Assembly: GCA_938743325.2 (NCBI GenBank)
Contig: OW568878.1
Location: 124,001-188,000 of the forward strand
Source of the DNA: Pycnococcus provasolii
Lineage: Eukaryota > Chlorophyta > Pseudoscourfieldiophyceae > Pseudoscourfieldiales > Pycnococcaceae
DNA length: 64,000 nt
Direction of reading: 5' to 3'
The notes under the pieces were generated by a model that worked only from the letters and a program-made list of their open reading frames with translations, made no database searches and was not told where the DNA came from. A program made the translations under genes and the position numbers. Of this stretch, positions 5,187 to 63,077 are shown in pieces (position 1 is the stretch's first letter; each line of letters starts with the position of its first letter).

Positions 5187-6147
5187 GACCAACAAGTTGG
5201 ACGAGTTTGCTTTTGCTTTTGCGTTTGCGCGCAGAGTTCGTGAACTTCCCGCGGCAAGAGACAGAACAGACTCCTGGGAGAGGAGAGGGGAAAACCCAAA
5301 GGCCTGGCACCTCGCACCTCCCCCCACGGATTCAAGAGAGGGCTCCGGCAGTGACCCTGAACCTTAACCAACGGTCTTTGCAACGGCAACGAGGGGATCC
5401 CTAAAACGACCTACCTTTAAGGAACACCTACCTTAATGAAATTACCTGGAGGGTTTTTGGCGGTGCTAACGGTCGTATGGAATCCAACGGAGGTAAACCT
5501 TTACTTGGTACTTTGCAGAGAAATTGGCACGGAAGAGTAGTACTATCGAGTATCGTAGGACTCGTTTCGAGACAATCTTAGTCTAGACTAATAAAGTTTA
5601 CCACCGTTCTCCTACAATGGTTATATGTATGGTACAGGACTACAGGCTTATCGTGATGAGAGAGCGAGGTGATGACCCCCCCAATGGCCGAGGGAGGGTC
5701 CCAGGCAGGCCGACACCACCTAGCTAAAGGTTTAGGCAGGGAGAGAGCCCTTGAAGAGGACCGTGGTGATTGCTTCCCAAGACTGCAAGTGCAAGGTTGG
5801 TTTGGAGTTTGGGCCCCAAGATCACAAGATGGTCAAGGCTGCAAGGCTGCAAGGGTCAAGGGGAACGAACCAGTAAGTTTACGGTTTACCTGATGGAACG
5901 ATCGATCGATTGCCGCCAAAGATCAAGCAGGAACTGCACCAGTTGCACACTACAGTAAGTTACGATAGAACCAGCAGTCAACCAGTACTGTAGTACTAGG
6001 AAGGCCTACATGGTTGGTACAATAGTACTAGGAAGCCTACGGTCTGACATACATCTGGTGGTGTTGTTAAATACCAACTACCCGTCAGCCCGTAGACTAG
6101 GCACATAATGAAGGCCTTGAACGTCGAGCTTCGCCCCTGATGGCTGA

Positions 6148-6192
6148 TGATCAGCTGATGATGATCAGCTGATGGATGTTGATCAGCTGATG
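6148..6192. promoter_or_regulatory. Three copies of TGATCAGCTGATG
   Basis: Identical 13-mers start at 6148, 6162 and 6180. Each contains the palindromes TGATCA and CAGCTG (an E-box core), spaced 14 and 18 bp. They lie about 75-120 bp upstream of a TATATAT (6266-6272) that precedes the ATG at 6572 by about 300 bp. The position and repetition suggest an enhancer-like site for the downstream gene; this is inference. Confidence 0.4.
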
Positions 6193-6265
6193 TTGATGAA
6201 CTTTTCCCTCCAGCAGTCCAGTGCACACTCCATCCAACCGGCCGGTCCTGTGCTCTCTTAAGGCA

Positions 6266-6272
6266 TATATAT
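6266..6272 (+). promoter_or_regulatory. TATA-like element upstream of the single-TM protein gene
   Basis: TATATAT follows the E-box-like triplet and precedes a pyrimidine/CA-rich leader that runs to the ATG at 6572. The assignment rests on sequence and position only. Confidence 0.3.
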
Positions 6273-6571
6273 GTGTGTCTATCGGCCGGCCATCATCACA
6301 CCACACCACCACCACCAACATTAACAACAACACACGATACACACCGTCTCGTCAATATTGTCATTGTCATTCTGTCTCGTCCGTCTTTCTCCTACCTTAC
6401 CACTCCTCATCTCATTCATCAGTGTGTCTTACATTCTCATCACTTCAGAGAAGTCTTACATAAATAAGTCTTACACCTTATAGTCTTTGCCTTCAGGCTG
6501 TTTTCCACCCGCCTTTTCTTTTTTTTTTCTTGTGGTGGTTGACCTCGGTTTGGCCTTCTCCAAACATTGCA

Positions 6572-9915: not shown

Positions 9916-10522
9916 GGCCAGGTACCTTCAAAGAAACACAAGCCCTCCCAGAGCCCCGCCGATGAAGCAAGCCCTATCGTAGTGAGAACCCTCGAGAACG
10001 ATAAAGGGAAAGAAAGGGGAAAAGGACACACAAACCAAGGGGGGAAACCCTTCGGGACCCAATGGAGGCGCAGGAAGTGCCACGGTGGAAGTCGACAAAT
10101 GGGCCCCACTTTGTTTGCCTTCCGAAAAGGGAGCCCTCCAGAAGAAACACTTTAGGGGGCACTTTATGGGGGGACGAGCGGCACACCTTTTATTCCTACT
10201 TTTTAGTCCTCTACATAACTCCGCTAATCCGGGCTAATCCGGATTAAAATATCCCCTATCCTGACTACCCATTGAGGCGTTACCCTAAGTCCCTAACCCA
10301 ACCCCCGGATGCCCGGAGGGACGGAGGTTCCCTAACCCTAGTTTGTTTGGTTTAAAACCCTAACCCAAGCAAAGCAAAATTTCCAAGCACGGGGATTTCC
10401 TTTCGCCGCCTTCTATTTGGGCTTGGGCTTTGTTTGCTTTTTCTGCTGCCCAGGGTGCCACCTCGGACAGAAATCCTTTTCGTTTCCGTGTGTGGAAAAA
10501 AACCCTCAGGCTCGTTCTTACC
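9916..10522. other. Divergent intergenic region with telomere-type motifs
   Basis: No gene is supported between the OPA transporter (-) and LysM (+) genes. It holds a doubled CTAATCCGG motif (about 10223-10245), CCCTAACCCTAG at 10330-10341 and AAAACCCTAACCC at 10354-10366, the last matching the plant telo-box core AAACCCTAA. These lie 155-195 bp upstream of the LysM start codon. Confidence 0.5.
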
Positions 10523-54529: not shown

Positions 54530-56425
54530 ATGTCCGTGTGGGGTGGTGGTAACCCTGGTTCTTCTTGGGCTCAGGCTGCGGATGAAGAACCTGCTCTTGA
54601 ACCTGTGGCTGACCTTGGGAATAACAATGACAAGGACAATGATTTCCCATCTATGGGGGGCGCACCAGCAGCAGCCCCAACCTCAAGTCCTTGGGGCAAG
54701 AAAGCTCCGTCTGCCGAAGATGTGACCTCTGGTGGTGGTGGTGGTGGTGGTGGTGGTGGACCGGAAGAGCTCTTTCCTTCTTTAAGTGAAGCCGCACATG
54801 TCAAGGTATCGAAAAAGAAACAAAAGGCGAAAACGACAGTCTCGCTTGGGGCTTTCCAGGCAATGAGCGATAAAAGGCCGTCGTACAAGCCGGGGGACCT
54901 CACTTCGAGTTCGCGATCGTCGGAAATGAGGCAGAAAATGGAAGACCAACGACTCATGATGTCGCTGCCAACCGCGCCGCGACTAGACAGGCCCGAAGGA
55001 GACGACGAGTACGGAGGAAGGGGCGGGTACGGAGGACGAGGGGGGGGAGCAGACAGGTTAGGCGGAGGATTCAACAACGACGAACGACGTGGCGGGTTCG
55101 ACCGAGGAGAACGAGGCGGGTACGGAGAACGACGAGGAGGGTTCGGGGACCGAGACGAAGAAGGCAGGGGACCGCGGGGACGCGACATGGAAGACGAAGG
55201 TCCGAGCCGCGCGGATGCATCCGACGACTGGGGCAGAAACAAACAGTTCACGCCCAGCGGACCTGCTGAACGCGGAGGATTCCGCGACGAACGACGTGGC
55301 GGGTACGACGACCGAGGACCGCCGGCGAGCCGAGCGGACGAAGTCGACAACTGGAGCCGCGAGAAGAAGTTCACGCCCACAGGACCGGGCGGATACGACG
55401 ACCGCGGGCCACCGATGAGCCGCGCGGAAGACTCCAACAACTGGAACCGCGACCGCGCATCCATGCCACGCCCACCTCCGGAGGAGGAGCGCGGGTTCGC
55501 GGGCCCGAGTCGAGCTGACGAGGCGGAACGCTGGGAACGAAACCCTATGCCGCAGGAGCCCGACCGTGAGCCTCTCGTAAGCCGCGCGGACGAGGCGGAT
55601 GACTGGAATAAGGAGAAGAAGCCAATCGAGCCGCGTCCTGAGCCGCGCGTGTCTCGCGCTGACGAGGCGGATCGCTGGGAACGAAACCCGCTGCCCGCAC
55701 GCGAGGAGCGCGAGCCGAGGCGGCAGTTTGGAAGCGGATTTCGCAACCGCAACGGCGACGGCGACGGCGACGGCGAGGAGGGATCGGGCAGGTGGACGCG
55801 CAAGTCGGAAGAGCCCGGCGCGAAGGAGGCGGCTGCTGAGGAGAAGCCTCGCGAGCGCAAGAAGCTGGACCTCAAGCCGCGATCGGCGCCTCTCGAGGAC
55901 AAGGCGACGGCGGACGCCGGTGCGGCTGGCAAGGGATCGTCCCCGTTTGGTGCGGCACGTCCTCGCGAGGCTGTGCTTGCTTCGCAGGGCCAGGACTGGC
56001 GTGCTAAGGAGGCTGAGATTGAGGCGAAGGCTGCTGAGAAGCGCCCACCCCCTCGTGAGAAGAAGGAACGCGCGCCGCGGGCTGAGAAGGCTGCTGAGAA
56101 GTCTGCTGAGAAGGCTGGCGAATCTGCCGAGAAGCCGTCTGAAGCGGAGAAGGATGCGGATGGTGCCGAGAAGCCGTCTGAGGCGAAGGCGTCTGAGGAG
56201 GATGGGTGGAGTGCGGTTCCGAGCACGAAGGATCGCCGTTCGGGCGGACGCGGTCGCGGCGATCGCGAAGGTGGTCGCGAAGGTGGTCGCGAAGGTCGCG
56301 GCGGTCGCGGTGGAGGTCGCGGCGGCGGCGGAGGAGGAGGAGGAGGAGGAGGGCGCGTCCCGAAAGGCCGCGACAACCCCGGTGGAGGTGGCGCAGAGAA
56401 GGCTGACAAGGGCGAGAGGTGGTGA
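54530..56425 (+). CDS. Plant-type eukaryotic translation initiation factor 4B
   Basis: A 631-residue, highly charged, mostly disordered protein. The N-terminus MSVWGGGNPGSSWAQAADEE and a FPSLSEAA element with a Lys-rich helix (KVSKKKQKAKTTVSLGAFQA) follow the plant eIF4B pattern, as does LPTAPRLDRPEGDDEYG. The centre carries Arg/Gly repeats and six SRADE-type units: SRADASDDWG, SRADEVDNWS, SRAEDSNNWN, SRADEAERWE, SRADEADDWN and SRADEADRWE. These units are diagnostic of the plant protein. The C-terminus is Glu/Lys-rich coiled coil and an RGG tail (GGRGGG). eIF4B stimulates the eIF4A helicase and binds RNA and PABP during 40S recruitment. The start ATG at 54530 (accATGTCC) follows a CT-rich leader. 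Confidence 0.9.
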   Translation: MSVWGGGNPGSSWAQAADEEPALEPVADLGNNNDKDNDFPSMGGAPAAAPTSSPWGKKAPSAEDVTSGGGGGGGGGGPEELFPSLSEAAHVKVSKKKQKAKTTVSLGAFQAMSDKRPSYKPGDLTSSSRSSEMRQKMEDQRLMMSLPTAPRLDRPEGDDEYGGRGGYGGRGGGADRLGGGFNNDERRGGFDRGERGGYGERRGGFGDRDEEGRGPRGRDMEDEGPSRADASDDWGRNKQFTPSGPAERGGFRDERRGGYDDRGPPASRADEVDNWSREKKFTPTGPGGYDDRGPPMSRAEDSNNWNRDRASMPRPPPEEERGFAGPSRADEAERWERNPMPQEPDREPLVSRADEADDWNKEKKPIEPRPEPRVSRADEADRWERNPLPAREEREPRRQFGSGFRNRNGDGDGDGEEGSGRWTRKSEEPGAKEAAAEEKPRERKKLDLKPRSAPLEDKATADAGAAGKGSSPFGAARPREAVLASQGQDWRAKEAEIEAKAAEKRPPPREKKERAPRAEKAAEKSAEKAGESAEKPSEAEKDADGAEKPSEAKASEEDGWSAVPSTKDRRSGGRGRGDREGGREGGREGRGGRGGGRGGGGGGGGGGGRVPKGRDNPGGGGAEKADKGERW

Positions 56426-56648
56426 GGTTTCGTCGATCTTGTCTACTGATACCAACCATAGTCTATCTTGATATCAGATTAAAACTTCTTAACTAGAACG
56501 TTTTTTCCAAAAACCACTACAGTACTTCCTACCGTATAATTTTAGTGGTAAGTTACCTAAATGCTCGCGTGATACCTACATATACCAACTATCATCATAT
56601 GGTGGTCCTTACCTTTTCTGGATAGGGTTTCCCGTGGCGGGTTTAGGG
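56426..56648. other. Intergenic region between eIF4B and the mobile element
   Basis: AT-rich sequence following eIF4B, probably its 3' UTR, ending in a short TTTAGGG motif at 56642-56648 that abuts the left end of the mobile element. No gene is recognised. Confidence 0.5.
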
Positions 56649-56671
56649 TTAGGAGGGGAAGTCAAGTGCCA
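56649..56671. repeat. 23-bp element-end repeat, copy 1
   Basis: TTAGG followed by AGGGGAAGTCAAGTGCCA. An identical copy is at 56873-56895. It abuts a TTTAGGG motif on its left, the presumed host side. Confidence 0.9.
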
Positions 56672-56748
56672 AAAAGTCAGATGTTTATTACTGTGTCCAA
56701 AACCCGAAAGTCACGTTTGGCCCCCCTCGACAAGGGAGGGTGGGTTGG

Positions 56749-56877
56749 GATGTCGACGCAAGGTGCGGCGACAAAAGCACAGGATGCCACGCCCAGGCCG
56801 CGGCAGGAGAAGGGAGCCCGCCCGCCCGCCCGAAGGAAGGAAGGGAAAAAACCCAACCCTGCTAACGCCTGATTAGG
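56749..56877. repeat. 129-bp direct repeat, copy 1
   Basis: It runs from GATGTCGACGCAAGG to GCCTGATTAGG and is identical over 129 bp to 58841-58969. It contains a (CCCG)n-like run and GGAA repeats. Its last five bases are the TTAGG junction. Confidence 0.97.
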
Positions 56878-56895
56878 AGGGGAAGTCAAGTGCCA
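56873..56895. repeat. 23-bp element-end repeat, copy 2 (overlaps the 129-bp repeat)
   Basis: It is identical to 56649-56671 and overlaps the 129-bp repeat by the shared TTAGG. On the minus strand it encodes the last residues of the recombinase (ALDFPS and stop), so coding and terminal sequence overlap. Confidence 0.9.
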
Positions 56896-57760
56896 TGTTA
56901 TCGGCGAGCGGTAAGATCAGCCAGTCGAAGAAAAAGCGGCCTGCGTAAGTAGGCGGCGTGGCTCGGCTGATGTAGTGCTGCGATAAGCGTTTCGAGTCCA
57001 CGGCCCATCCGCCGAGGAACTCGATTTTGCTGCGTGGAAGGGGAACCATTTCCGCAGCAGAAGCGCCACCAGAGCGAAGAGAGCGCGCCGTGTACACGCG
57101 CCCCTCTGGCGGCTGCAGGCTGACAGTGGTCAGCGCTGTACCGAGCATGCGGCCGAGGGCGTCACCAAAATTAGTTTTTTCTGTGAAGCGCTCGCCCGGA
57201 AGCTCAAAGAAATGCGTCGCAGTGGGGTAGACAGCTGCGCGCGCGGCTGTGAAGTTGCGCAGCGCAGTAGCCAAGCCCGCAAAGCGGCGCGGGAATGACA
57301 GCGGAAATCGGCCTGGCTGGTTGCGGTCGATTCCGTGGTCGGTTTTGACGTGCTGACGCGTGACCGTCACACAATGTGCGGCGGAATCGGGGTCAGCTGT
57401 CAGATCTGTTGTAGGCAACAGAAGAATGGAGATGGGCCGCGACATCGTCATGAAACAGATGGCGACGGCGAGGAGAGCCCGCAGCAGTGAAAGATTATCC
57501 GCAGCAGAAGCTGCTGTCGCTCCCAAAGCACATGCTCTGTCATAGATTGCTTTGGCGACAGTCGCAGGATGGACTCGGACAGCCACCACAAGGCTGCCGA
57601 CTCGTCCAGATCCTCCAGGGATTTGCCGTGGTTGAACGGCAGCGGGGGTCGTCGGCTCCACTGCGCGCGAAAGCCGTACTGCACCCCCTGATAGACGGAG
57701 CCGTTCGCTCCGCCGCAGAGCTTGCGCCATGCGCGCAGCTCCGCTTTGGTTCTCCGCCAT
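56873..57760 (-). CDS. Tyrosine recombinase of the mobile element
   Basis: A 295-residue frame. The C-terminal catalytic domain of a tyrosine recombinase is recognisable: box A with Arg108 (AICFMTMSRPISILLL), a Lys139 in a beta-hairpin position (RQHVKTDHG), box B RSLRSGGASAAE with Arg229 (the usual His of HxxR is Arg226), LGGW (Trp252 at the His/Trp position) and the nucleophile Tyr263 in SQHYI. Such enzymes cut and rejoin DNA at short core sites through a 3'-phosphotyrosine. The N-terminal core-binding half is not clearly recognisable in this frame, so I leave open whether the copy is whole. The protein end overlaps the element's terminal repeat. It lies 58 bp downstream of the coiled-coil ORF on the same strand. 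Confidence 0.7.
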   Translation of the reverse strand: MAENQSGAARMAQALRRSERLRLSGGAVRLSRAVEPTTPAAVQPRQIPGGSGRVGSLVVAVRVHPATVAKAIYDRACALGATAASAADNLSLLRALLAVAICFMTMSRPISILLLPTTDLTADPDSAAHCVTVTRQHVKTDHGIDRNQPGRFPLSFPRRFAGLATALRNFTAARAAVYPTATHFFELPGERFTEKTNFGDALGRMLGTALTTVSLQPPEGRVYTARSLRSGGASAAEMVPLPRSKIEFLGGWAVDSKRLSQHYISRATPPTYAGRFFFDWLILPLADNMALDFPS

Positions 57761-57818
57761 AGCGGAGAGCCAGGTGGTACTCGGACCACCTCAACGCCGC
57801 AGAGCGGCGTCGTCAGGC

Positions 57819-58781
57819 TTAGCCCTTGTCCTTGCGGAGTTTTGCAATCTCCGCCTTGAGCTTCTTCAGCTCTTTGTCCTTGGCGCCGTTTGGCGTCCGA
57901 TCGCCCAACTGGCCGCCAGCACTGATACCAGCTGCCCGCTCAGCCGCAAGCTTCGCAGACTTCTCCGCGTGGATGCGCCGGAAGCTGTTCACCTGCGTGT
58001 TCAGCGCGTCCGACGACGTATCGACGTGAGCCGCGATACTCTCACTGGCCTCCACTGCAAGTCGCAGGAAATGAGGCACAAGATGATCAGGAGACAGGTA
58101 CGTCCGCTGAAGTCCTTCTCCGTAAGCAGCGATTGCACGCAGTCCTTCAGTAGATCCAGCAGCACGCGCTACTGTTTCCGTCAAGAGGGTGGTGCCGTTG
58201 TCAATCCCACGCAAGCGTTCGAGTAGCTGAGCCCGTTGACCCGCTGCGAGAAGACGAGCCTCCTCCTCAGCTCCTTCCTGCTCCTCTGCAGCGACGGGAC
58301 GAAGCTGCGCTTCCACAGCAGCAACGAGATTTTCAGTGAGAGCCTCCGCTGCGAGGGCCTGTGCTCGAGCAGCTGAAAGGCCGAACTCGAGTACTTCGAG
58401 GTACGACAACAAACTCAGCAGGATGCGAAACACCGTCGAATCGTGCTTCTTACCCTTCTCCACCGAGTGCAGGTAGATGTACTCGGAGGTAAGGTTCAGC
58501 AGGTGTGGTTCACCTTGAGCTCCCGCAACGTCCGTGGGAAGACGGTGCGAATTCGGCCCGCGCGTAAGCGTAGCGGGAATCAGGTATAGACGCTGTTCGT
58601 CGAGATCTGCCTCCGTGGGAGGCTCGAGAAAACGACGACGCTCTGGTTGCGGTTGAACCCTGGCCGCGGGCCTTCCTTGCTGCAGCTGCAAGTTCTGCTG
58701 CACAAGTAGATTGTTTTGCTCGCGGAGCAACTGAATTTGCTCTGCGAGCTCGGGTTGGTCGGCGCCTCCAGGTGCCGCCAT
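57819..58781 (-). CDS. Unknown coiled-coil protein carried by the mobile element
   Basis: A 320-residue protein of no family I know. Residues 10-36 form a leucine/asparagine-rich coiled coil (ELAEQIQLLREQNNLLVQQN). The middle is helical (FRILLSLLSYLEVLEFGLSA, EALTENLVAAVEAQLRPVAA). The C-terminus is a basic helix (KELKKLKAEIAKLRKDKG). It has no zinc knuckle, RT or protease motif. Its position as first ORF before the recombinase resembles the gag-like first ORF of tyrosine-recombinase retroelements, but it could equally be a DNA-binding or accessory factor. The start ATG at 58781 is 60 bp inside the right-hand 129-bp repeat. Confidence 0.6.
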   Translation of the reverse strand: MAAPGGADQPELAEQIQLLREQNNLLVQQNLQLQQGRPAARVQPQPERRRFLEPPTEADLDEQRLYLIPATLTRGPNSHRLPTDVAGAQGEPHLLNLTSEYIYLHSVEKGKKHDSTVFRILLSLLSYLEVLEFGLSAARAQALAAEALTENLVAAVEAQLRPVAAEEQEGAEEEARLLAAGQRAQLLERLRGIDNGTTLLTETVARAAGSTEGLRAIAAYGEGLQRTYLSPDHLVPHFLRLAVEASESIAAHVDTSSDALNTQVNSFRRIHAEKSAKLAAERAAGISAGGQLGDRTPNGAKDKELKKLKAEIAKLRKDKG

Positions 58782-58840
58782 GAAACTGTGGACACAGTCC
58801 TACAGTGACCTCTGCGCGTAACTCCGACGCGCGAGTGCTT

Positions 58841-58969
58841 GATGTCGACGCAAGGTGCGGCGACAAAAGCACAGGATGCCACGCCCAGGCCGCGGCAGGA
58901 GAAGGGAGCCCGCCCGCCCGCCCGAAGGAAGGAAGGGAAAAAACCCAACCCTGCTAACGCCTGATTAGG
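58841..58969. repeat. 129-bp direct repeat, copy 2
   Basis: It is identical to 56749-56877. It runs straight into GTTAGGGCTAGGGTT, a telomere-type array on the host side, so the element end is at or within TTAGG (58965-58969). Confidence 0.97.
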
Positions 58970-58985
58970 GTTAGGGCTAGGGTTA
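58965..58985. repeat. Telomere-type motif at the element junction
   Basis: TTAGGG, TTAGGG, CTAGGG and TT follow the 129-bp repeat. They lie about 375 bp upstream of the O-GlcNAc transferase ATG, on the strand opposite to the other promoter arrays. Confidence 0.8.
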
Positions 58986-59357
58986 CTTCTCCCCCTCCCC
59001 TCTTCCGGCCTGCTTTCTCAGCATTCTGATTCGTCCTCTTCTCAGCCCGCGGGAATTGTGTGTGTGTACTGTGTGGCCGGCCATTCAAGGGTGTGTCGCT
59101 CGGAATCTCTGGCTGCCCTTTTCACTTCACTTTGAGCTGGTGGTGGTGCTCGTGGTGGTTGGTGCCTCGCTGGTGGTGCTGCTCGTTGTGTGTGGTGCTC
59201 GTCCTGCTCCTGATTGCGCTTGCCGCTCCAGGTGGGGTGGTGGAGTCTTGGTGGTGGAGTCTTGGTGGAGTCTGTTAATAAAATAGCAGGCTGTTCACAC
59301 CTGCGGCTAATCTTGGCATTCTTGGTGATTTGGCGACTTGGTTGTTGCCACCTCGCC
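58970..59357. other. Promoter/leader region of the O-GlcNAc transferase gene
   Basis: After the telomere-type motif come pyrimidine-rich sequence and a GT/GGT-rich stretch (about 59050-59275). The open frame upstream of 59358 lacks an ATG. No separate gene is recognised. Confidence 0.5.
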
Positions 59358-62300
59358 ATGCCGATGCCTGGCAGCATGGATGTTGGCGCGGCATCCATGC
59401 TCCTGCCCCCCGGGTTGACGCACCCCGTTGGCGCGCACATGCCACCGTTCGGGTTTGGCATCGTCTCGCTGGGTGACTCCGCACCGGCGCTGGGAGGAGA
59501 TGTGGTTGCCGGAGATGTTGCCGCCGCGCTGGCACCTGGCTTTGGGGGCGTGCCGATGGCGCCCGGCGCCGTCGTCGGACCTGCTGCCGTCGTGCCCATG
59601 GTGCCAATAGCGAATGGGCCACACGGCATGGGACCCATACATGTCGTGCCTACTCACGGAGCGGCTGGCGTCGCGTCTGTGGGAACACACACGGCGGTCG
59701 TACACATGGGTGCAGGTGGTCCGCACGTCGGACTCACAGACGCGCAGGCGACAGCCGCACCGGCACCCATGGCTGCACCCTTGGCAGCGGCGCTGCCCGC
59801 AACGCTGTCGTCGGCAAGACAACAGCCACAACCTCAGCCACAAATCAAGGCTGCATTATCTGGTGCGCAGTCTCAAAGGATGGATGGTGGGAATGCGCAG
59901 CCTGTGTCGCAACACAGCAAGGCGGCCATGGCACGGGCTCACACGCACTACGTGCGTGGTGAGTACGCAGTCACAGAAGTCATATGCCAGGCCATCGTCG
60001 ACTCCGCGCCTAATCGTGCCGACGCTCTGCTGCTCCTCGGCGCGGCGGCGTACCAGCGTGGCGACTTTGCGCGCTGTGCAAAATGCAACGCGGAGGCGAT
60101 TCGGATCGACCCGCTGCTTGCGGAAGCGTACGTGAACCTCGCCAACGCGCTCAGCCAGCTCGGAGCCATGGACGCAAGCGTTGCCTACTACCTTGCCGCG
60201 CTTCGCATCAGGCCAAATTTTCGAGAGGCGTACGCGTCACTCGGCGCGTGCCTCCTGCGCTCGGGTGACGTTGCGCGCGCCGCCGATTGCTACGAGCATG
60301 CGGCACGATTGCCGCCGCCGAGTGCCGCGCTGCTTTGCCACCTTGGCGACCTGCGAAGGCAGCTCGACGATCACAACGCCGCCGTGATGTGCTACGAGTC
60401 GTCACTGTCGGTGGACAACGCCTTCGCGCCCGCATGGGCTGCGCTTGCAACCGCGGCGAGCGAACGCGGCGACGTCTCGCGCGCGTTTGCGCTCTCCACA
60501 GAGGCGCTGCGCATCGCCCCAGAATCACCCGAAGTGCTCGCAATGTATGGCAACCTTCTGCGAACTACCGGAGCTTCAGCTGCCGCGGTGGAATTCCTGA
60601 GCCGTGCCACAAACTTTCGGCGCACGTGCGCCATCACACGCGCTAACCTCGGCGGCGCACTGTACGAGTCTGGGCGGCTCATCGAAGCGGCGACGGAGCT
60701 GCGCACAGCCGTGGCGCTTTCGCCGCACTGCGCGGAGGCGCACAACAATCTCGGCAATGTTCTGCGCGATCTGGGCAAGCTCGCGGAAGCGGCGGGTTGC
60801 TACCAGCTCAGCATACAGCTGCAGGTGAGCACAAACGCATCTCGGGCAGCACTGGTTGCTGCGGCGGCTGCCACAGCTGTTCCCACAGCGGCGGCGGCGG
60901 CGGTGGCGGCGGCGGCGCGTGCCGGCGTTTCTCCCGTGGTTCTTGAGGGAACCGGCGCAGCGGGGGTCTTGCAGAATGCGGCAGCTGCGGGCGTTTCTCA
61001 ACTTCCCCCCCTCGCACCTCCTGTTGCCTTGCTGCGGGCATTGGAGACACCGTCGGCCGCCGCTCGCATGGCAGCGGCCGAGGCTGCCGCCGCCGCCGCC
61101 TCCGCCTCCACGATGATTGCCACTGCGGAGTCACCCATTGCTCCGATGCTGTCGTTCCAAGCTATGGGATTCGAGCCGGGAAGTCCGTCATCGATGCGTC
61201 TTGCAACCACGTACACGAATCTTGCGGGTGTCTTCAAGGCACTTGGACGTGCGGTGGAGTCGGCAGTTTGCTATAGCCACGTTGCGAATCTGCGCCCCAA
61301 CTGCCCGGAAACGCAGAAGGACGCAGCATCTGCGCAGAAGGATCTGGGGCGACTCGACGAGGCGATCGTGTTCTACCGCCGAGCGCTGGGCGTGAAACCG
61401 GATATGCCCGATGCGTACGCAAACCTCGTGCACTCGCTGATGTGCGTGTGCGAGTGGGGTCATCGCACAGAGCTCTTTGTGTGGCTGGATGCGCTGCTGC
61501 GCGCACAGATGCGACACGGGCAGATGCCTTCCGTTCAGCCATTTCACGCGATGGCATACCCGCTGGACTCTGAGCTCGTAAAGGACCTCAGCAAGGCGTA
61601 CGGCAGACACTGCCTGCTGCAGGCGCATGTGGCGCTGGTGACTCTGGCAACAACTTCGGCAGCCGCCGCCGGGAATTCCGCGGTGATGGCGGCCACGCCT
61701 CCCGCGCCTCAGGCGAGCGCAGGCCTGTATGACACCATGCTGCTATCGCCGTACCGCCTTCCGCACGCGCCGAGAAGGCCGCTGCGTTCAGGCGAGAAGC
61801 TCAAAGTTGCGTACGTGAGCAGCGACTTTGCGAATCATCCGCTGAGCCACCTGATGGGCTCCGTATTTCAGCTGCACGACCGTTCAGAGGTGGAGGTGAC
61901 CGCTTACGCAATCAGCGCGAGCGACGGTACCGCATGGAGGCGTCGCATCGAAGGTACGGTGGAAAATTTTGTGGACGTGTCGTCGCTGTCCCCCTACGCC
62001 GTCGCGCGTAAAATTTCCGATAGCGGTGCTCACATCTGCGTCAATCTGAACGGGTACACGAAGGGAGGCAAGAACGAGATCTTCGTGTACCGCCCCTGCG
62101 CCGTGCAGATGTCGTACATGGGTTTCCCCGCGACGATGGGTGCGGATTTCATCGACTATCTGGTGTCAGATGCGATTGTCAGTCCTTGGGAGCTGCACGG
62201 CCAGTGCTACACGGAATCGCTCGCTCTCATGCCGCACTGCTACTTTTGCAACGACCACAGGCAGGTGCACATGGACATCTCGCCGCCGCTGTATCCGAAG

Positions 62301-63077
62301 GACGTCGACCTCGCGGAGCCTCGCGCTCGCATTGGCCTGCCAACGAACGCGTCCGTGATCTACGCGTGCTCTAACCAGCTGTACAAGTACGACCCAGACA
62401 CGTTCGCCTGCTGGACGCGCATCCTGCGTCGCGTGCCCGGCAGCGTGCTCTGGCTTCTCCGCTTTCCCCCGAATGGCGAGGCACGCATTTTGCGGTACGC
62501 GGCCGAGCTTGGCGCACCTCCCAACTCGATCATCTTTACCGATGTCGCGGGTAAGACGGAGCACGTGAATCGGTCGCAGTACGCCGACGTGTTCCTGGAC
62601 ACGCCCATGGTGAATGCACACACGACAGGCTGCGACGTGCTGTGGTCGGGCGTTCCAATCGTGACGCTCCCGATGCGCCGCATGGCAAGCCGCGTCTGCG
62701 CGTCTCTTTGCGCGAGCATGGGTCTCTACGAAGCTTGCGTGGCGCACGATCTTGCGGACTACGAGGAGAAGGCTGTGCGCCTTGGGCTGGACCGGACGTA
62801 CCGAGCCGCTCTGCGGCGCGAGATTCTCATGGGTCGATGGACGCAGCCTCTTTTCGACACGCGACGGTGGGTGCGTGACTTTGAGCGCCTCATGTACAAG
62901 GCGTGGGAGATTTACACGACAGGCGACACGGACGACGAGAGAGGGATCAAAAGTTTTGCAATCCCTCCCATGCCGATTCCCGACGTGACTGAGGACGAGT
63001 ACAGAGCGAAGTGGTCGTGTGACGCACTGTTGCAGGCTGCGGTGCAGGCTGGAAAGCAGCCTCTACTGAATCAGTAA
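59358..63077 (+). CDS. Protein O-GlcNAc transferase, SECRET AGENT/OGT type (GT41)
   Basis: A 1239-residue protein. The first 185 residues are Gly/Ala/Met/Pro-rich. Residues 186-488 and 609-694 are TPR repeats (for example AEAYVNLANALSQLGAMDAS, AEAHNNLGNVLRDLGKLAEA), split by an Ala-rich, probably disordered insertion of about 120 residues. The GT41 catalytic domain (about 800-1190) has KVAYVSSDFANHPLSHLMGS, YAISASDGTAWRRRIEGTVE, LNGYTKGGKNEIFVYRPCAV, QMSYMGFPATMGADFIDYLV, SNQLYKYDPDTF (the catalytic-site Lys), VLWLLRFPPNGEARI and NAHTTGCDVLWSGVPIVTLP. It transfers GlcNAc from UDP-GlcNAc to Ser/Thr of nuclear and cytosolic proteins. It is closer to SEC than to the fucosyltransferase SPINDLY. 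The mobile element lies in its upstream region. Confidence 0.92.
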   Translation: MPMPGSMDVGAASMLLPPGLTHPVGAHMPPFGFGIVSLGDSAPALGGDVVAGDVAAALAPGFGGVPMAPGAVVGPAAVVPMVPIANGPHGMGPIHVVPTHGAAGVASVGTHTAVVHMGAGGPHVGLTDAQATAAPAPMAAPLAAALPATLSSARQQPQPQPQIKAALSGAQSQRMDGGNAQPVSQHSKAAMARAHTHYVRGEYAVTEVICQAIVDSAPNRADALLLLGAAAYQRGDFARCAKCNAEAIRIDPLLAEAYVNLANALSQLGAMDASVAYYLAALRIRPNFREAYASLGACLLRSGDVARAADCYEHAARLPPPSAALLCHLGDLRRQLDDHNAAVMCYESSLSVDNAFAPAWAALATAASERGDVSRAFALSTEALRIAPESPEVLAMYGNLLRTTGASAAAVEFLSRATNFRRTCAITRANLGGALYESGRLIEAATELRTAVALSPHCAEAHNNLGNVLRDLGKLAEAAGCYQLSIQLQVSTNASRAALVAAAAATAVPTAAAAAVAAAARAGVSPVVLEGTGAAGVLQNAAAAGVSQLPPLAPPVALLRALETPSAAARMAAAEAAAAAASASTMIATAESPIAPMLSFQAMGFEPGSPSSMRLATTYTNLAGVFKALGRAVESAVCYSHVANLRPNCPETQKDAASAQKDLGRLDEAIVFYRRALGVKPDMPDAYANLVHSLMCVCEWGHRTELFVWLDALLRAQMRHGQMPSVQPFHAMAYPLDSELVKDLSKAYGRHCLLQAHVALVTLATTSAAAAGNSAVMAATPPAPQASAGLYDTMLLSPYRLPHAPRRPLRSGEKLKVAYVSSDFANHPLSHLMGSVFQLHDRSEVEVTAYAISASDGTAWRRRIEGTVENFVDVSSLSPYAVARKISDSGAHICVNLNGYTKGGKNEIFVYRPCAVQMSYMGFPATMGADFIDYLVSDAIVSPWELHGQCYTESLALMPHCYFCNDHRQVHMDISPPLYPKDVDLAEPRARIGLPTNASVIYACSNQLYKYDPDTFACWTRILRRVPGSVLWLLRFPPNGEARILRYAAELGAPPNSIIFTDVAGKTEHVNRSQYADVFLDTPMVNAHTTGCDVLWSGVPIVTLPMRRMASRVCASLCASMGLYEACVAHDLADYEEKAVRLGLDRTYRAALRREILMGRWTQPLFDTRRWVRDFERLMYKAWEIYTTGDTDDERGIKSFAIPPMPIPDVTEDEYRAKWSCDALLQAAVQAGKQPLLNQ

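Follow-up and report, generated by a model that had tools for sequence, protein, structure and literature searches.

The window analyzed here is a stretch of 64,000 nucleotides of Pycnococcus provasolii (G000:C18:124001-188000) from a genome assembly of 32,333,900 bases in 46 contigs; the available text on strain CCAP190/2 gives 32.2 Mb and 44 chromosomes plus plastid and mitochondrion (PMC11130579). At positions 56649-58969 it carries a mobile element, flanked by a plant-type eIF4B gene (54530-56425) and a TPR/glycosyltransferase-41 (OGT-like) gene (59214-63077), and located just upstream of the latter. Repeat analysis of the window gave the order A1, gag-like ORF, recombinase, B1, A2, spacer and B2, all on the minus strand. 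A1 (58841-58969), a 129-bp terminal direct repeat starting with CCTAATCAGG, is 100% identical to its internal copy A2 (56749-56877). Likewise, the internal 23-bp repeat B1 (56873-56895) is identical to the terminal B2 (56649-56671), which ends with ..CCCCTCCTAA. B1 and A2 overlap by exactly CCTAA, and a 77-bp spacer (56672-56748), a region that is longer in other copies, separates A2 from B2. Telomere-type repeats adjoin both ends, with ..TAACCCTAGCCCTAAC directly before A1 (58970-58990) and, read on the minus strand, CCCTAAACCC after B2 (56639-56648). We could thus reproduce the 129/ORFs/23-129/spacer/23 arrangement of identical 129-bp and 23-bp repeats described in an earlier note on this DNA, and the repeat comparison bears out its reading as the A1-ORFs-B1-A2-B2 split repeats of PAT and Ngaro elements.

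The gag-like ORF (57819-58781, 320 aa) resembles the first ORF of L029, a related element in the same genome (32% over 71 aa, E 1.7e-7). A Pfam search with this ORF gave no match, and it has no cysteine and hence no zinc finger. The tyrosine recombinase ORF (56873-57760, 295 aa) runs in the same direction, and its homology, from about residue 65 onward, covers the catalytic domain. It keeps R108, K139, R229, W252 and Y263, which we take to be the catalytic set of tyrosine recombinases, and its predicted fold resembles the catalytic half of Cre and Xer recombinases, the likeness being confined to Cre residues 132-330. The N-terminal domain of Cre and Xer recombinases is used for DNA binding. 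P0003 and P0004 are full-length recombinases with a SAM-like N-terminal domain that is absent from the window ORF. The recombinase announced in the earlier note is therefore present, but its truncation to the catalytic domain had been overlooked; judged from its sequence, it is probably not a working enzyme. The named proteins among its closest relatives come from P. provasolii and Pseudoscourfieldia marina. Grouping with a non-mobile host gene, which the earlier note had named as an outcome that would speak against a mobile element, did not occur, as the closest recombinases not belonging to the family are parts of elements with a reverse transcriptase (RT).

Between the gag-like ORF and the recombinase lies the start of a DIRS/PAT-type RT, which gives way to the catalytic domain of the recombinase near 57,570. 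Protein alignments locate this N-terminal remnant (homology at about 57777-57574) in an ORF at 57448-57789. It matches P0027 with 34% identity over 68 aa (E 2e-8 in a search of 51 proteins), and also P0061, P0026 and P0048. The remnant is short and its best matches are 24-34% identical, with a score of 43.1 bits compared to 33.1 bits for the best of 200 shuffles. RT homology stops at 57574 and recombinase homology begins at 57568 in a different frame, and these alignment limits place the putative deletion junction at 57566-57576. The remainder of the RT-RNase H region and the N-terminal SAM-like recombinase domain are missing from the window copy. From this arrangement we infer an internal deletion, rather than a gain of sequence, as the origin of the copy; no undeleted copy of the family was seen. 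The earlier description of an element without RT thus holds for the domain, since Pfam found none in the window copy, but not for the remnant, which had escaped notice.

According to the available text, Cryptons are recombinase-only DNA elements (PMC3212892, PMC4157794), and the window copy shares with them a tyrosine recombinase in a mobile element. It could accordingly be read as a Crypton-like DNA transposon, i.e., one that carries a recombinase, has acquired long repeats and at no time relied on reverse transcription, which would suit a copy with a recombinase ORF and no RT domain. However, the N-terminal RT remnant, the split repeats of PAT/Ngaro type and a gag-like ORF akin to that of an RT-bearing element set the window copy apart from Cryptons, and the relationships of its recombinase point the same way. 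The new Crypton-like DNA element that had been considered is thus not supported, and we regard this origin as almost certainly wrong.

Structure instead places the window element nearest to the Toc3-like PAT elements of algae. In the available text of PMC4157794 and PMC3266345, these elements have the same A1-ORFs-B1-A2-B2 split repeats and are known from algae, and the window host, a small marine species, is also a green alga. Their gag lacks a zinc finger and their recombinase has the same direction as gag, both of which are true of the window copy. In contrast to the related L029, which has RT, RNase H-like and apparently Dam-like regions, the window copy is missing RT-RNase H and the recombinase N-terminus, as well as the MT (Dam-like) domain. 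Without RT/RNase H it is probably a deleted derivative of a Toc3-like PAT element and not a full member. Ngaro elements share the split direct repeats and have a gag-RT/RH-YR organization (available text of PMC3266345 and PMC6681497); they are set apart by description, being reported without the MT domain that is apparently present in the L029 relative.

L029 itself has a gag-like ORF, a recombinase frame and an RT ORF in which RVT_1 and, weakly, RNase H were matched, together with 181-bp A repeats (97% alike) and 24-bp B repeats in the same order as in the window element. It has no Pfam match to Dam at E 0.01 but aligns with 36% identity to P0047 across the Dam region of that protein. The B sequence of L029 has 91 matches in the genome, allowing up to two mismatches, an abundance which makes a related source of enzymes plausible. 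Several RT-bearing lineages of recombinase retroelements reside in this host (L029, L030 and L033); L030 has TGGCCATTCGGTCGGTGAAACC as its B repeat, and its examined stretch showed no A repeat. A tree built from related RTs contained no named PAT element, and the window copy has no RT domain to place in it.

The 129-bp A repeat has at least 38 matches in the genome, so that it is not an unrelated local duplication, which the earlier note had named as a refuting outcome; all 38 listed matches are internal to contigs by their coordinates. Thirty of them carry a 5′ end and two are internal A2 copies (window and L016); the remainder are the rest of a split copy (C4:917579), L025, truncated at base 10, and four partial matches (L053, L054, L055 and L057). 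The terminal 27 bp of the element occur at 11 places in the genome, 10 of them exact. Identical repeats together with many copies fit the recent mobility that had been suggested. Within this assembly we found no complete copy of the family: none of the 37 RT matches has coordinates within an element that surrounds one of the 38 A matches, and a genome search for the family's recombinase N-terminus found none. The parent and the deletion are therefore reconstructed from fragments, and the parent would have been an RT-bearing element. Longer copies with RT, which the earlier note had proposed to look for, do exist in the related families L029, L033 and L030, but for the window-element family this assembly yielded none.

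The copies differ considerably in their interiors. Among the 13 copies whose 3′ end was located, six (L009, L012, L013, L015, L021 and L060) have in common a right end of 0.4-0.9 kb with repeats of roughly 200 bp, and L010 has 188 bases of it; of this long right end, the window copy and L011 have just the final 31-32 bases. L012 consists of A, spacer, repeats and B2 and is solo-LTR-like, while L016 lacks bases 170-1813 of the window copy. L058 holds an ORF for a Copia-type polyprotein (RVT_2, E 1.1e-32), and other dispersed repeats (40 matches) make up the interior of L010. Within L011 lies a stretch of about 1.1 kb that carries an FHA-domain ORF in antisense orientation (5598-6419, minus strand, E 4.1e-10); the genome has no second copy of this ORF. 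Elsewhere in the genome the insert matches only C37, over 67 bases beside the FHA ORF, and 73 bases on the upstream side of the ORF are 99% identical to a C37 stretch that adjoins unrelated sequence. In L058 (303-1078) the B end is arrayed in tandem as 7.3 copies of a 106-bp unit containing it, and L059 has seven B matches at irregular spacing.

A chimeric copy, L014 (4873-5768), starts with the 5′ end and gag of the window family, continues with an RNase H piece and closes with a 3′ end from the L029 family. The RNase H piece, 51-54% identical to RT proteins of the L029 lineage, is single-copy in the genome, and the 3′ end is 100% identical to the L029 family over 96 and 56 bases. Telomere-type repeats flank L014 on both sides. 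Template switching between two element RNAs would explain this join.

Open fusions of gag and recombinase with differing junctions are also seen in four public proteins, P0001, P0002, P0007 and P0014, which indicates that the family has open internal deletions in further samples as well. Such fusions, and the open ORFs of the window copy, could also reflect an established, selected non-autonomous class of compact gag and recombinase elements, in which the truncated recombinase or the fusion is functional, for example in regulating or packaging. This appears unlikely, given that the junctions vary from copy to copy, the recombinase has lost its N-terminal domain, and P0014, P0007 and P0010 run into unrelated sequence, as expected of copies in decay.

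The flanks of the copies revealed a feature that the earlier account of the element had overlooked, namely its telomere-type target. To count independent ends, we started from 38 start entries and dropped six (the A2 copies of the window, L016 and L031, and chance matches at L009 minus, L016 at 7913 and L060) as well as two duplicates (L058 = L049 and L059 = L046), leaving 30 5′ ends. Removal of three internal B1 copies (window, L016 and L031) from 16 end entries left 13 3′ ends; L014 is counted among the 5′ ends and left out of the 3′ ends, as its 3′ end comes from another family. CCCTAAC lies directly upstream of the 5′ end in 23 of the 30 copies exactly and in 27 with at most one mismatch. 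The background on both strands of the window, one mismatch allowed, is 109/127,986 positions, so that about 0.03 of 30 would be expected. The exceptions are L022 and L023, with CCCTAA two or three bases farther away, and L024, with CCCTAT. At the 3′ side, eight of the 13 ends run into CCCTAA exactly and 10 within one mismatch, with L012, L023 and L051 off the rule.

The near-constant heptamer could in principle be the element's own left end, in which case there would be no telomere-repeat target. Yet CCCCT of B1 stands before the internal A2 copies of the window, L016 and L031, from which it follows that the bases upstream of the 5′ ends derive from the target. Moreover, the 7 bp vary in telomere-like ways, bases 8-60 upstream contain a further CCCTAA in 20/30 copies, compared to 144/18,230 background stretches, and most of the 3′ flanks continue the repeat. 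This reading is thus most improbable. A further possibility is that insertion or break repair gave rise to the telomere-type repeats, which would then not have been the target, and interstitial telomere repeats can indeed arise at repaired breaks (available text of PMC7215372). However, phase and strand of the repeat run across both junctions via the shared CCTAA, and such arrays are common in the genome without the element, which makes their addition very unlikely.

With chromosome ends counted, a genome search for exact four-unit CCCTAA arrays yields 1,897 overlapping matches on one strand and 1,909 on the other, and near-exact two-unit CCCTAA has 20 matches in the 64-kb window compared to 0.06 expected. 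Interstitial CCCTAA arrays of two or more units lie in the window at 10330, 11527, 15075, 41989, 42971, 45742 and 45788. Among 12 contig-end stretches, seven terminate in TTAGGG/CCCTAA, an eighth has such repeats toward its interior, three lack them and the last is given as N. In a same-genome control that is thin at three loci, CCCTAACCCTAA, with up to one mismatch, was absent from L029, L030 and L033. Judged from these flanks, the family appears to land nearly always in TTAGGG-type repeats that are scattered along the chromosomes. The window junctions would fit a shared CCTAA, and the empty site at the window would have read ..TAACCCTAGCCCTAAC-CCTAA-CCCTAAACCC..

Altogether, we consider it about 80% probable that the window copy is a non-autonomous, internally deleted PAT-type (Toc3-like) element of the order DIRS, with a cycle that would run through a circle and CCTAA. 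Among the options of the earlier note, the RT remnant and the RT-bearing relatives in the same genome support a non-autonomous DIRS-type element, and a full element beside a short non-coding relative found no support. Having no RT and probably no working recombinase, the window copy would need help in trans and is probably helper-dependent. Following the published model for such elements, an RNA from A1 to B2 would be reverse-transcribed by enzymes supplied in trans, and the A and B repeats would permit a DNA circle with the junction ..CCCCT-CCTAA-TCAGG... A full-length recombinase could then recombine the CCTAA of the circle with a CCTAA inside a CCCTAACCCTAA array, leading to integration into interstitial TTAGGG-type repeats with no target-site duplication. 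Integration of DIRS1-like elements proceeds from a circular intermediate that recombines at a short shared sequence and leaves no target-site duplication (available text of PMC3266345), a scheme which the anatomy of the window copy fits if CCTAA is the shared sequence. Three of 30 5′ ends and three of 13 3′ ends do not match the target rule.

Insertion of a recombinase retroelement into TTAGGG repeats is already known from TATE of Leishmania braziliensis, which occupies a fixed place in these repeats (available text of PMC2696322 and PMC6681497). The window family shares insertion within TTAGGG repeats and thus works like TATE, a likeness in mode of insertion rather than a sign of membership. 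According to the same sources, TATE is located at chromosome ends, has a TT duplication and is represented at internal sites by remnants only, whereas the family described here, compared by description, occupies interstitial arrays in a green-algal host, with junctions that fit the shared CCTAA. The available text of PMC4157794 and PMC3266345 makes no mention of telomere-repeat targeting by PAT elements, and a search of titles and abstract starts in the open-licence literature brought up no recombinase element of algae that targets telomere repeats. The chances are about even that a prasinophyte PAT-type family has come to use interstitial TTAGGG-type landing sites genome-wide and independently of TATE, while being reshuffled by template switching, as in L014, and picking up gene-like sequence, as in the FHA ORF of L011.

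The window copy on its own is an ordinary deletion derivative, and the interest lies in the target choice of its family. Little is known about site choice by recombinase retroelements, and thirty insertions with a readable shared core, CCTAA, constitute a natural data set on this question. Setting the family beside TATE could reveal if the targeting of telomere repeats has a single origin or several. Should the specificity hold up, the full-length recombinase would become a candidate integrase for telomere-type repeats.
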